Assembly: GCF_028771845.1 (NCBI RefSeq)
Contig: NZ_CP118270.1
Coordinates: forward strand, 3,348,001 to 3,412,000
Direction: 5' to 3'
DNA from: Paenibacillus marchantiae
GTDB lineage: Bacteria > Bacillota > Bacilli > Paenibacillales > Paenibacillaceae
DNA length: 64,000 nt
A model generated the notes under the pieces. The model searched no databases and was not told the origin of the DNA. It saw only the letters and a program-made list of their open reading frames with translations. A program made the position numbers and the translations under genes. Shown in pieces: positions 34,237 through 64,000 of the stretch. The stretch's first letter is position 1. The number at the start of each line of letters is the position of its first letter.

Positions 34237-35196
34237 ATGTTGAAGGCACAAGCAAGGTTTGCATCTTTGGTAATGGCATGTACAATGATTTTCTCTGTTG
34301 TCGGAATGGTATTTCAGCCTGCTGCTAAGGTATCTGCTGCAGACGCATCTGGAACGACAGCAAGTATCTCAGATATTTTGAAGAATCAACGTCCTGACGG
34401 GGGATGGAAGAAGGATTACAAAGAAACAAGTGGTGAGTGGGCCAAATCTACGATTGATAATAAAGCTACATACTCAGAAATTAGAAGATTAGCCAAGGAA
34501 TTTAAAAAGACAAATGATCCGCGATATTCGGCTGCTGCCATCAAAGGAATCAACTTTTTGTTAAATATGCAGTACTCCAATGGAGGATGGCCACAAGTAT
34601 ACCAGAGCTCAGGCTATCACAAACACATTACCTTCAACGACGATGCCATGATTAATGTCATGTACATGCTGGATGAAGTAGGTGCACGTAAAGGTGATTT
34701 CTCATTCATCGACAGCTCTCTTGCGGATCGCAGTAAAAAATCAGTTGCCAAAGGTGTAGATGCTATTCTCAATACACAGGTTGTAGCAAATGGTAAACTG
34801 ACTGCATGGGGACAGCAGCATGATTCCAGCTCCCTAAAACCTGCAGGAGCAAGGATATATGAAGTGCCTTCTCTAAGTGCTGGAGAGAGCAGTACGATTG
34901 TAAAGTTTTTGAAAACAAGACCGTCGAACTCGAAAATTAAGGTTTCCATTCAAGCGGCAGAAGCCTGGTTCAACAACGTGAAAATTACAGGATACAAGTA
35001 TGTCAGAGAAAACGGAGATAGCAAACTCGTAGCTGATTCAGGTGCATCGCCAATTTGGGCACGTTTTTACGAAATTGGAACGGATAAACCGATCTTCGTA
35101 GGACGTGATGGGGTTGTGAAATACAAACTCAGCGATATCGATAAGGAAAGAAGAGGCGGGTATGCCTGGTATGGCAACTGGCCTTCAAAGATATAA
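34237..35196 (+). CDS. Secreted pectate lyase, polysaccharide lyase family 10
   Basis: A 319-residue exported lyase that cleaves polygalacturonate by beta-elimination, in an alpha/alpha-toroid fold. The signal peptide spans about residues 1-33 (ends VSA-ADA). PL10 signatures are QRPDGGWKKDY, YSNGGWPQVYQ, TFNDDAMINVMYMLDE and the C-terminal SPIWARFYEIGTDKPIFVGRDG. No binding module or SLH domain is attached, so it should be freely secreted. ATG 34237 has GGGGAG 12 nt upstream. It has its own promoter, no clear terminator, and precedes a tRNA gene and the glycan locus. Pectin degradation is consistent with a plant-associated life. Confidence 0.88.
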   Translation: MLKAQARFASLVMACTMIFSVVGMVFQPAAKVSAADASGTTASISDILKNQRPDGGWKKDYKETSGEWAKSTIDNKATYSEIRRLAKEFKKTNDPRYSAAAIKGINFLLNMQYSNGGWPQVYQSSGYHKHITFNDDAMINVMYMLDEVGARKGDFSFIDSSLADRSKKSVAKGVDAILNTQVVANGKLTAWGQQHDSSSLKPAGARIYEVPSLSAGESSTIVKFLKTRPSNSKIKVSIQAAEAWFNNVKITGYKYVRENGDSKLVADSGASPIWARFYEIGTDKPIFVGRDGVVKYKLSDIDKERRGGYAWYGNWPSKI

Positions 35197-35241
35197 TTTA
35201 TAAAAAGCTTTATCATTGAAGGCGAAATTATATTTTTTTTG

Positions 35242-35271
35242 TTGACACTAATTACCTGCACATGTTATATT
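35242..35271 (+). promoter_or_regulatory. Promoter of tRNA-Leu
   Basis: TTGACA (35242-35247) is followed after 17-18 nt by TTATAT/TATATT (35265-35271), about 45 nt upstream of the tRNA. Confidence 0.7.
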
Positions 35272-35314
35272 ATCTCTTGTCGCCGCGATATAATTTCTCG
35301 GAGATAAGACATAC

Positions 35315-35398
35315 GCGGTCGTGGCGGAATTGGCAGACGCGCACGGTTCAGGTCCGTGTGGGCTAACCCCCGTGGAGGTTCGAGTCCTCTCGACCGCA
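35315..35398 (+). tRNA. tRNA-Leu (anticodon CAG)
   Basis: An 84-nt class II tRNA. The acceptor stem GCGGTCG pairs with CGACCGC, the anticodon stem is CACGG/CCGTG with loop TTCAGGT (anticodon CAG, reading CUG), the long variable arm is GGG-CTAA-CCC, and the T stem is GAGG/CCTC with TTCGAGT. The CCA end is not encoded. It is a single tRNA with its own promoter and terminator, located between the pectate lyase and the glycan locus. Confidence 0.97.
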
Positions 35399-35412
35399 TC
35401 ATATGTAACACG

Positions 35413-61488: not shown

Positions 61489-61520
61489 AAGGCTGCGAAT
61501 TGCATCGCAGCCTTATTTTC
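61489..61520 (+). terminator. Terminator of the second surface enzyme
   Basis: AAGGCTGCGA (61489-61498) pairs with TCGCAGCCTT (61505-61514), followed by ATTTTC. Confidence 0.85.
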
Positions 61521-61658
61521 ATAATTTGAAATGAGAGATGATTTCCCCTATGGATTGTAAGAATGCGATATGGCTAATTTAACTCCTGCTTCCTACAATA
61601 ATAGGTATGTTCACAACACACAGCACGAGGGTAACAGGAACTCGAAAGGATGATCAAT

Positions 61659-63770
61659 TTGACGATTCAATATAATGAACAACTACGTATATTTGCAATA
61701 CAGACGCAAAATTCGTCCTACATTTTCGGAATTAATGAGAGGGAACACCTCCAGCATCTGTATTGGGGTAACCCCGTGGACATCGAGGACAGCGCTCCGT
61801 TGCTCCATCTACAATCCCATAGCTCTTTTGACGCGGAAGTGGAAGGAGAGGTGGAGGAGTACAGCTTCTGGGGAGGAGCATCTTATACAGAGCCATCTCT
61901 GAAGCTGCGCATGTCTGATGGTGTCCGCGATCTTCAGGTAAAGTATGACCGGCACGAAATCATTGAACAAGATGGCAGACAGACGTTGATTATCACGTTG
62001 AAGGATCAGGTCTATACACTTGAAACGCAGCTGATATATCGGGTCATCCCGGAATTCGACCTGGTGGAGCGTTACGCCAATATCGTAAATACGGGACAGG
62101 AGGATATCGTGCTGGAAAGCATGCAATCCGCAGCCTGGACATTTCCATATCTCCAGGATTACCGCTTGACGCATGTTACGGGGAAATGGTCGGGTGAATT
62201 CCAACTGCGTAATACCATTTTGACAGAGGGGAAAAAGATACTTGAATCGCGGAGAGGTTTCACGGACGGTCATGCCAACCCATGGTTTGCGATTGATGAT
62301 GGTCTTTCGACAGAAAGCGGCGGCGGGGTATGGTTTGGTGCTCTGGCCTGGAGCGGCAACTGGAAGATTGTTGCGGAGAAGACCCCATTCACGCATGTGC
62401 GGGTAACAGGTGGCATCAATGATTTTGACAATGAATGGTTGCTGGGTGCGGGCGAAACGTTTGAGACGCCTGTCTTTGTCGGCGGATTCAGCCCAGAAGG
62501 CTTTGGCGGAATGAGCCACCGCTTGCATCAATATCAATACAATTACATACTGCCTCGCAGTGAAATCGGGAAAGTGCTGTACAACTCCTGGGAAGCTACC
62601 TACTTCGATGTTAACGCACAGGACCAAATGGCGCTTGCCGAGCGGGCAGCCAAGATGGGCGTGGAGCTGTTCGTCGTGGATGACGGCTGGTTTGGACAGC
62701 GGCATTCCGACCGAGCGGGGTTGGGCGACTGGAACGTGAATATGGAGAAGTTCCCGAACGGACTTGTTGAGCTGATTGACCGGGTTCACGGACTTGGGAT
62801 GGAGTTCGGCATATGGGTAGAGCCGGAGTCGGTCAACCCAGATAGTGATCTCTATAGAGCACATCCAGACTGGGTATATCATTTTGAGACCCGGGAACGT
62901 ACGGAGCTTCGCAATCAGCTGCTGCTGAATATTTCCAAGCCGGAGGTTAAGCAATACATTATCGATTTTATGACCGAACTGCTTGGCAACCATGAGATTA
63001 AGTTCATTAAATGGGACATGAACCGGACCATCACGGAGCCTGGCATGAAGGGGCACCCTATTAACCGCCAGAAAGAAGTATGGGTAAGGCATGTCCAGAG
63101 TCTCTATGATATCTGGGCACAGCTGAGAACCAAGTTCCCGGATGTGGAGTTTGAGACTTGCGCAGGAGGTGGCTCGCGGATTGATTTGGGCATCTTCCGT
63201 TATGCCGACCAGTCCTGGCCGAGTGACAATACGGATGCGTTCGACCGTCTGAGCATTCAGGAAGGCTTCTCCTATACGTACGCACCACGTATGATGACCT
63301 GTTGGGTAACTGAGTCACCTACAGGAATGAACGGTCGAAACGTCTCCCTGAAGTATCGTTTCCACAGTGCAATGATGGGCACGCTTGGTATTGGCTCCAA
63401 TCTGAACGAGTGGAGTGATGAATGGATTGGGCAGTCCGGGGAATTCATCGGTCAGTACAAAGCCATTCGCCATCTCGTGCAATTCGGCAGACAATTCCGC
63501 CTGACTGCGCTTCGACATAAGGGGGTTACGGCTGTCCAGTACAGCGATGCTGCAGGAAGTGATCATGTGCTGTTCGCTTTTCTTCACTCGCAGAAGCTGG
63601 GTGAACCGTTGCCTAGACTCCGTTTGGCAGGTCTTCATGCTAACAAGACCTATCTCATTGAAGAGCTGGGATTATCGGTCAGTGGCCGTGCGCTGATGAA
63701 CATCGGGGTGGAGCTGCCTCTACGTGGCGATTTCGATAGCTTGGTGTATCGTATCCGTGAGCAGGTATAA
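61659..63770 (+). CDS. GH36 alpha-galactosidase
   Basis: A 703-residue retaining alpha-galactosidase in the cytosol (no signal peptide). A large N-terminal beta-sandwich (about 1-320) is followed by the TIM barrel with ELFVVDDGWFG, nucleophile Asp453 in FIKWDMNR and acid/base Asp523 in WPSDNTDAFDR, then a C-terminal beta domain. GIWVEPE is also typical. It would release galactose from alpha-1,6 and similar galactosides after import. TTG 61659, 8 nt after AAAGGA, is preferred. ATG 61650 directly abuts the purine run. It has its own upstream gap without a clear cre site and ends in a bidirectional terminator. Confidence 0.93.
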   Translation: MTIQYNEQLRIFAIQTQNSSYIFGINEREHLQHLYWGNPVDIEDSAPLLHLQSHSSFDAEVEGEVEEYSFWGGASYTEPSLKLRMSDGVRDLQVKYDRHEIIEQDGRQTLIITLKDQVYTLETQLIYRVIPEFDLVERYANIVNTGQEDIVLESMQSAAWTFPYLQDYRLTHVTGKWSGEFQLRNTILTEGKKILESRRGFTDGHANPWFAIDDGLSTESGGGVWFGALAWSGNWKIVAEKTPFTHVRVTGGINDFDNEWLLGAGETFETPVFVGGFSPEGFGGMSHRLHQYQYNYILPRSEIGKVLYNSWEATYFDVNAQDQMALAERAAKMGVELFVVDDGWFGQRHSDRAGLGDWNVNMEKFPNGLVELIDRVHGLGMEFGIWVEPESVNPDSDLYRAHPDWVYHFETRERTELRNQLLLNISKPEVKQYIIDFMTELLGNHEIKFIKWDMNRTITEPGMKGHPINRQKEVWVRHVQSLYDIWAQLRTKFPDVEFETCAGGGSRIDLGIFRYADQSWPSDNTDAFDRLSIQEGFSYTYAPRMMTCWVTESPTGMNGRNVSLKYRFHSAMMGTLGIGSNLNEWSDEWIGQSGEFIGQYKAIRHLVQFGRQFRLTALRHKGVTAVQYSDAAGSDHVLFAFLHSQKLGEPLPRLRLAGLHANKTYLIEELGLSVSGRALMNIGVELPLRGDFDSLVYRIREQV

Positions 63771-63791
63771 AAGGATGCTGTAGAATGTTTT

Positions 63792-63840
63792 AAAAGGAGT
63801 GCTTTGCAAGCCAATAGTGGCTGCATTGCACTCCTTTTTT
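63792..63840. terminator. Bidirectional terminator between GH36 and yesM
   Basis: AAAAGGAGTGC (63792-63802) pairs with GCACTCCTTTT (63828-63838), with inner AGCCA/TGGCT. T runs lie on both strands. Confidence 0.8.
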
Positions 63841-64000
63841 ATTGGATCTCTTTTTGTGGCAGACGGATTTGGACCGTGGTTCCCATGCCTAGTTTGCTGT
63901 ACACTTTTACACCGTAATATTCACCAAATTTCAGCTTAATTCTCCGATCCACATTTGAAATGCCATAGCCGCGTCCTTCTTTCTCTTCAAACAAAGACTG
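63839..64000 (-). CDS. yesM: Sensor histidine kinase YesM type, C-terminal end (partial)
   Basis: Fifty-three codons plus stop of a minus-strand gene that continues past the window edge. The peptide holds the end of a GHKL ATPase domain: EGRGYGISNVDRRIKLKFG (G-box and the Y-E/N region of YesM kinases) and SKLGMGTTVQIRLP, a typical C-terminus of the YesM/LytS-type kinases. Its partner should be YesN at 55076. Together they would sense sugar-derived signals and regulate the locus. It is convergent with GH36. The N-terminal sensor is outside the window. Confidence 0.85.
   Translation of the reverse strand, partial: QSLFEEKEGRGYGISNVDRRIKLKFGEYYGVKVYSKLGMGTTVQIRLPQKEIQ

Follow-up and report, generated by a model that had tools for sequence, protein, structure and literature searches.

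A conserved Paenibacillus locus with signs of shared control and a probable role in the breakdown of a galactosylated and fucosylated glycan

Do the surface glycosidases, importer, cytosolic glycoside hydrolases (GHs) and regulators encoded side by side in the genome of Paenibacillus marchantiae form one pathway and, if so, for which glycan? The genes lie in a stretch of 64,000 nucleotides (contig NZ_CP118270.1, positions 3,348,001 to 3,412,000 of the forward strand; hereafter, the window), in which an earlier reading, made from the letters alone (the sequence-only reading), had recognized a polysaccharide-utilization locus for an alpha-galactosylated, alpha-fucosylated glycan. We re-derived the gene calls for this 64-kb window and scanned the proteins against Pfam, and the results agree with the enzymes, importer and regulators listed in that reading. 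The enzyme, importer and regulator genes of the locus within the window occupy positions 35699-63770. The extent originally proposed stands for this gene list but not for its edges: the locus proper starts at 35610, 3' of a tRNA-Leu gene, which excludes a pectate lyase gene, and runs to about 73 kb, past the window end, with most of a YesM-type kinase gene lying beyond the window. The catabolic locus is real and conserved and bears signs of shared control; it is probably a Gram-positive polysaccharide-utilization regulon for a complex glycan containing alpha-1,3-D-galactose (Gal) and alpha-1,2-L-fucose (Fuc) or alpha-L-Gal. Its parts are mostly of known kinds, whereas their combination appears to be new, as do the control site and one of the enzyme families.

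Across 149 genomes, the window's own included, GH110 was detected (E<=1e-20) in 18, of which 13, again counting the window's own, belong to the same genus. All 12 same-genus relatives with GH110 share one gene order, that of the window, namely, a surface GH27 enzyme with S-layer homology (SLH) domains (GH27-SLH, 35699..39619), an AraC-type regulator (39820..42153), two importer permeases (PermB, 42480..43364; PermC, 43380..44279), a solute-binding protein (SBP, 44377..46020), GH110 (46135..47898), a GH95 enzyme (GH95a, 47922..50303), a clan GH-D enzyme of an uncharacterised family (GHD, 50433..52490), another GH95 (GH95b, 52582..54975), a YesN-type response regulator (54986..56608) and a surface paralogue of GHD (GHD-SLH, 56834..61483), all on the forward strand of the window. 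Two permease genes are inserted after GH95b in one relative (G047). The co-occurrence in other Paenibacillus genomes, which had been suggested as a check, is thus borne out; P. taichungensis, P. pabuli, P. xylanivorans and P. illinoisensis (locus L070) are among the species with such a locus on record. Further out GH110 is rare, being found in 8 of 398 genomes of the class and 3 of 398 of the phylum, with the window's own genome and its kin included.

The association of GH110 with GH95a extends beyond the genus. Of 19 cytosolic-type GH110 genes (at least 50% identity), 18, from four genera, have GH95a as the next gene 3' (the window, the 12 relatives, G446, three genomes of one genus and G138, with G077a as the exception), and GH95a is next to none of five other GH110 genes (G446b, G080, G890, G077b and G120); these counts leave out both G122 copies, three further G890 matches and a G031 fragment. 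On a tree of 24 GH110 rows, the GH95a-neighbour label needs two changes, below all 500 shuffles, a low count being favoured by near-copies and five long branches making deep placements unsure. Large GH110 proteins (1167-2281 aa) constitute a second Bacillota type (L146 in G890, L040/L041 in G080 and L147 in G446), and none of them is adjoined by GH95a. The G031 fragment (C3:742901-743152, L021) is a second, broken GH110 copy, 61% identical over 85 residues and interrupted by one TGA. An L-fucose isomerase gene in the genome of the window scores above the FucI cut-off, and next to it are kinase-like and aldolase-like genes that stay below the cut-offs of their families. Strong FucI matches are present in all 13 locus-bearing genomes versus 28 of 61 other genomes of the genus (Fisher p 3e-4, a value that ignores relatedness).

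Signs of shared control come from the promoters. Their alignment in 13 genomes revealed a common double half-site 5' of GH27-SLH and 5' of PermB; in the window, these are TGTACGT-N12-TGTACCT (35610..35635, forward strand), which may serve surface GH27 as an AraC-type operator, and TGTACGT-N13-TGTACCT (42281..42307, forward strand), 5' of the importer operon. The strict pattern derived from these two sites, TGTACGTN{12,13}TGTACCT, matches the 6.98-Mb genome twice, at window positions 35610 and 42281, both in the locus. Among the 13 locus-bearing genomes, ten have two copies, G028 has one, and G003 and G031 have none; a reversed control pattern gives five matches in the 149 genomes and none in these 13. 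With the seventh base freed, the core form TGTACG-N13/14-TGTACCT precedes both GH27-SLH and the importer in all 13 genomes, and the importer also in all three genomes of another genus and in the related loci L065, L066 and L069; in G446 a single copy lies 1 kb 5' of GH110, and G138 has none. A looser pattern matches five times in the genome, three of them within the locus (binomial 1.5e-6, a rough value since the pattern came from two of the sites). The third copy lies between GH95c, a divergent GH95-like gene on the reverse strand (69516-71954 in window-extended coordinates; L022:6519-8954), and AraC2 (72165-73061, likewise extended), and accompanies these genes in all 8 genomes that have them; the two fully fetched genomes that lack the genes also lack the site. 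The best 80 of 228 matches also yielded 67 related loci, together 1.31 Mb and each at most 22.6 kb long, of which some lie on one contig. Here, 11 of 12 looser-form matches are directly 3' of the AraC gene, seven of the 11 being records of genomes already counted, and three related loci with a 66% AraC have the second half-site only. Because of this position, the AraC-type protein encoded at 39820, which has a membrane segment and a Cache-like domain (below the Pfam cut-off), is the probable reader of the double site.

Cre-like sites on the forward strand accompany both operators, TGGAAGCGCTATCA at 35673..35686 and AGAAAGCGCTATCA at 42345..42358, and a further one, TGAAAGCGATTACA at 56819..56832, is 5' of GHD-SLH. 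A pattern modelled on these sites matches the forward strand four times in 101 kb, three times at transcription-unit starts and once inside YesN, and the reverse strand twice, at 3627 and again at 56819; we take the cre consensus to be that of catabolite repression. Terminator-like hairpins are 3' of GH27-SLH (39634), AraC (42171) and GHD-SLH (61488); the hairpin scans also report weaker ones within genes (21 found versus 13.7 expected, and 16 versus 10.0).

The cellular layout proposed by the sequence-only reading, from the surface via import to the cytosol, is consistent with N-terminal hydropathy: the surface and membrane products, including both SLH enzymes with their N-terminal hydrophobic segments, reach a maximum KD15 of at least 2.1, versus 0.65-1.01 for GH110, GH95a, GHD, GH95b and GH36 (61650..63770, forward strand). 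The latter five have no such segment and are placed in the cytosol. Pfam supports the domain families of the importer (BPD_transp_1 in both permeases, SBP_bac_1) and of YesN (response regulator with HTH_18) only; the labels LplB/LplC (LplABC), YesM and YesN are our presumed assignments. Together with the conserved order, the operator common to surface GH27 and the importer-GH110-GH95 operon, the GH110-GH95a coupling and the fucose isomerase, this layout favours one pathway, as had been proposed.

The cytosolic enzymes point to the linkages involved. GH110, of the alpha-1,3-galactosidase type, has GLAA-B barrels with a beta-helix and matches GH110 chains in the Protein Data Bank (PDB). Residues D305, D328, D329, N332, W471 and E473 are invariant in ten sequences, and the catalytic Asp residues of PdGH110B, located in the window enzyme by their motifs and spacing, are retained. 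Pro435 takes the place of the +1 Arg-451 of PdGH110B, as it does in PDB 8yk1-3, the top-scoring entries, which share the PTRG motif with the window enzyme and are presumably the B. bifidum enzyme. An AlphaFold model of GH110 (pLDDT 54.7) was too poor for use. GH95a has the N-x-N motif as TLNIN, whereas GH95b retains it in part only, as HLDMN (D-x-N, the first Asn being replaced by Asp). Both keep the Glu in SPE and the Asp in IDGN/VDGN, presumably the counterparts of known GH95 residues. GH95c, adjoining the third operator copy, shows no counterpart of the later catalytic Asp when aligned and may differ in activity from GH95a and GH95b; a GH95c-like gene (745 aa) also stands beside GHD genes in L110, a metagenome-assembled genome (MAG) of Acetatifactor. 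As a means of telling L-Fuc from L-Gal activity, the His/Thr position in GH95 was considered and dropped, since the available parts of two papers (PMC8245568, PMC10063614) describe it as not decisive. The alpha-galactosidase-type GH36 has its GH36N, Melibiase and GH36C domains and is nearest to AgaB/AgaA.

The surface enzymes and GHD depart from this familiar picture. GH27-SLH combines Melibiase_2, Melibiase_C, two CBM_X2, a CE2_N(-like) domain and three SLH domains, and by alignment retains both catalytic Asp. At the position of GsAbp Ile67, the key site for galactose versus arabinopyranose, all 13 genomes (window and 12 relatives) encode Ala, neither the Asp of GH27 alpha-galactosidases nor the Ile or Glu of beta-L-arabinopyranosidases; in the portion of PMC4598101 available to us, these are the residues described at this site, an engineered Ala variant (I56A) has an Ara:Gal ratio of 1:1.4, and there are 'no examples' of natural Ala enzymes. 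The closest PDB match is the GH27 beta-L-arabinopyranosidase Abp. GHD and GHD-SLH are 43% identical in the catalytic region and have no catalytic Pfam match: GHD matches Melibiase_C only (E<=0.001), leaving the GH36 catalytic model unmatched, and GHD-SLH comprises CBM6/CBM35-type modules (one match overlapped by an Endotoxin_C-type match), Melibiase_C and three SLH domains. Among 25 aligned sequences of this family, the alpha-galactosidase Asp is replaced by Ala (10) or Ser (15), and Asp430 and Asp496, the likely catalytic residues, are invariant. The earlier description of the GH27 and GH-D enzymes as plain alpha-galactosidases does not fit these replacements. The family profile matches GH27 chains at 4e-11 and the GH36 enzyme TmGalA at 2.6e-8, and GHD-SLH matches TmGalA at 1.4e-6. 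A good AlphaFold model of GHD (pLDDT 88.2, pTM 0.90) has a GH36-like fold along the whole chain, with the first two Foldseek matches at TM 0.65-0.68 and 12-13% identity. Although the first of these is a blood-group-A enzyme, we made no use of it for a mucin or blood-group reading, with ordinary GH36 close behind at such low identity. On these alignments and profiles, we propose GHD as a candidate new clan GH-D glycosidase family related to known GH27 and GH36. GHD genes also occur in six gut-type or uncultured Lachnospiraceae-like MAG loci (L100, L101, L102, L109, L110 and L115), in the company of permease genes and a protein of ~860 aa that are likewise conserved. Pfam assigns this protein to DUF5696 in L110, and GH36 is present in four of the six loci.

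Several observations weigh against a single regulon for such a glycan. Pfam scans gave no known endo family in either SLH enzyme, which lends no support to the earlier suggestion that surface enzymes release oligosaccharides, and no secreted depolymerase or endo-enzyme is recognizable. With the alpha-galactosidase Asp missing from GH27 and both GHD proteins, the alpha-Gal content of the glycan depends on GH110 and GH36, and GH36, although near the locus in nine of the 12 relatives, is absent from that place in three. GH95 sequence does not separate L-Fuc from L-Gal activity, and the fucose isomerase gene is 1.3 Mb from the locus and without the operator pattern. Locus L069 (P. xylanilyticus) retains the whole order with no GH110 between SBP and GH95a. 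The strict operator pattern also strays, with 20 matches in 19 of 136 other genomes (two in G085, 1.3 Mb apart); because of these strays, several of which are near-identical among relatives, similar sites may be used by other regulators. L069 and the stray matches slightly reduce our confidence in the regulon. Finally, no copy of the operator pattern was found at GHD-SLH, GH36, the pectate lyase or a second importer (importer B), which lies beyond the window to the right of the YesM-type histidine kinase gene (63839-65665 in extended coordinates, reverse strand; its 3' end at 63839..64000). Part of the region may therefore obey other regulators and serve a second glycan.

That last point raises the possibility of two adjoining systems, each with a glycan of its own: block A, with AraC, importer A, GH110, GH95a and GH95b, and block B, with GHD-SLH, YesM and YesN, importer B and GHD. 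Block A occurs without GHD in the fetched surroundings of all three genomes of the other genus, where the permease is 90% identical and GH110 only 54%; 14 of the 67 related loci have block B, with GHD and GHD-SLH, and no GH110 within the stretch covered; and the operator copies are found at A and beside GH95c/AraC2, whereas the promoters of B have none. However, in all 12 relatives, and in L069 despite the loss of GH110, GHD sits within operon A, flanked by GH95a and GH95b. Moreover, 25 of the 67 loci contain GH95b along with GHD or GHD-SLH, in L080, L081 and L092 directly 5' of AraC and the start of importer A. A division into two systems seems rather doubtful. Among the 67 loci, GH36 is found in 11 and GH110 in nine. 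In G047 (L031), a different importer/YesMN set separates GH95b from GHD-SLH, as though block B had been swapped, and in P. agri a GHL6/GH42-trimerisation-type protein with a weak alpha-L-fucosidase match is encoded beside GHD (L065:13408-15633), an additional accessory enzyme of relevance to the substrate.

If the locus is a single regulon for a galactosylated and fucosylated glycan, the source of that glycan may be sought in plants, microbes or animals, none of which we regard as likely. Arabinogalactan-protein, mucilage or side chains of rhamnogalacturonan I (RG-I) are a tentative plant target, for which GH27 would be wholly or partly a beta-L-arabinopyranosidase and GH95 would cleave alpha-L-Fuc or alpha-L-Gal. 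A GH88-type gene, of a family tied to pectin breakdown, lies near GHD in a related GHD-GHD-SLH-GH95b locus of P. monticola (L071:4636-5757). The similarity of GH27 to Abp and the mixed Ara/Gal activity of the engineered Ala enzyme (PMC4598101, in part) point the same way, as does XacAfc95, a GH95 of plant xyloglucan breakdown in the accessible sections of PMC8245568. Against this, no arabinofuranosidase, galactanase, GH28 or rhamnogalacturonan enzyme was found among the scanned locus genes of the window strain, and the pectate lyase gene (34237-35196), taken by the sequence-only reading as a pointer to plants, is not conserved with the locus: it is present in three of nine relatives with the left flank fetched (G070, G039 with a 251-residue match, and G042; G049, G048 and G028, with too short a flank, are left out of this count). 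With absence from the other six, a tRNA gene in between and no operator copy, we rejected it as a locus member.

An acetylated heteropolysaccharide of Gal, Fuc and mannose (Man) from fungi or bacteria, such as fucogalactans or wall polymers of Mucoromycota, could be the target instead, with a probability similar to that of the plant one. After block A, two of the three genomes of the other genus carry an alpha-mannosidase-like gene, GH38 by Pfam in G428 (L144) and with the same N-terminus in G254 (L142/L143), and G497 has none; such a gene 3' of GH110-GH95a-GH95b is a hint of mannose in the glycan. A GDSL esterase gene is 5' of GH110 in L065 and G254. In the part of PMC7928374 available to us, a GH110-encoding Paenibacillus that groups with P. 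illinoisensis is associated with a fungus of a fucose-walled subphylum, and P. illinoisensis has the present locus. This association is, however, a single case, known from GH110 alone, and neither GH38 nor an esterase gene is among the locus genes of the window strain. Least probable of the three are animal glycans of the blood-group-B or mucin type, reaching soil in dung or carcasses. Breakdown of the B determinant needs GH110 plus GH95 activities, and the best PDB score of GH110, with the PTRG motif in common, is to 8yk1-3. Yet a literature check failed to find the presumed assignment of these entries to B. bifidum, and no sialidase, GH20, GH101 or GH29 was found among the locus genes scanned.

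For the single regulon, which we prefer, the following route can be proposed. The two S-layer-anchored clan GH-D enzymes would act on the glycan at the cell surface, and the membrane AraC-type sensor would turn on transcription of GH27-SLH as well as of the importer operon via the common double TGTAC site, with the cre-like sites contributing catabolite repression. Oligosaccharides would be taken up by the importer, after which cytosolic GH110 would cleave terminal alpha-1,3-Gal and GH95a the neighbouring alpha-L-Fuc or L-Gal, leaving the remaining breakdown to GHD, GH95b and GH36. We infer the linkages, the order of action, the binding regulator and L-fucose as a product. A bolder version, which we hold only tentatively, is a new Paenibacillaceae pathway with its own AraC operator, in which the GHD pair, placed at the surface and in the cytosol on the two sides of an importer, and the Ala-type GH27 act on something other than plain alpha-D-galactopyranose, with beta-L-arabinopyranose and a 6-modified galactoside as examples, and GH110-GH95 strips a B-antigen-like branch. 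If the proposed route is true, the locus is a dedicated route of Gram-positive, soil-type bacteria for a fucosylated alpha-galactoside glycan and harbours, in intracellular form, an enzyme from a family known mainly for blood group B removal; it would also offer fresh GH110 and GH95 enzymes, a candidate glycosidase family and an operator as a handle for substrate identification.

On the left, the locus is flanked by mostly housekeeping genes (8 of 10 proteins scanned have Pfam matches), followed by the pectate lyase gene and tRNA-Leu (CAG; 35315..35398, forward strand), a boundary marker with no functional role in the locus. The pectate lyase gene beside the tRNA gene in only some relatives may mark an exchange hot spot at this edge. 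To the right of AraC2 are a divergent polysaccharide deacetylase gene (by Pfam) and an amidase gene.

The sequence-only reading knew of no such combination in Gram-positive soil bacteria, which is consistent with our searches of open-licence PubMed Central (PMC): none of the titles and abstract starts retrieved describes such a locus. In architecture, the nearest systems are the xylan (aldouronate) and beta-glucan utilization regulons of Paenibacillus sp. JDR-2, as far as described in the accessible part of PMC4765114. As in JDR-2, an SLH-anchored multimodular surface enzyme, an ABC importer, cytosolic glycoside hydrolases and local regulators are combined with predicted cre sites, so that, at the sequence level, the window has the JDR-2-type set under apparently shared control; unlike in JDR-2, the enzymes are those for alpha-Gal and L-Fuc rather than xylan or beta-glucan, there is no recognizable surface endo-enzyme, and a common double TGTAC site is present. 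GH110 resembles PdGH110B and PpaGal, for which parts of PMC7939477 and PMC12002104 were available, in domain families, catalytic Asp and, by alignment to PpaGal and 8yk1-3, -1 subsite motifs, but is signal-less and encoded within an importer operon adjoining GH95. The GH95 enzymes have the three domains of XacAfc95, FucOB, BACOVA_03438 and BH0842, with N-x-N in GH95a and, unlike in those enzymes, D-x-N in GH95b. GHD shares the fold of GH36 enzymes, including the F. plautii galactosaminidase ranked first by Foldseek, but differs from them in its 12-13% identity and unmatched Pfam catalytic domain. Like Abp-type beta-L-arabinopyranosidases, GH27-SLH has the catalytic Asp pair by alignment and has lost the alpha-galactosidase Asp, but it replaces their Ile or Glu with Ala and adds CBM_X2 and SLH domains.

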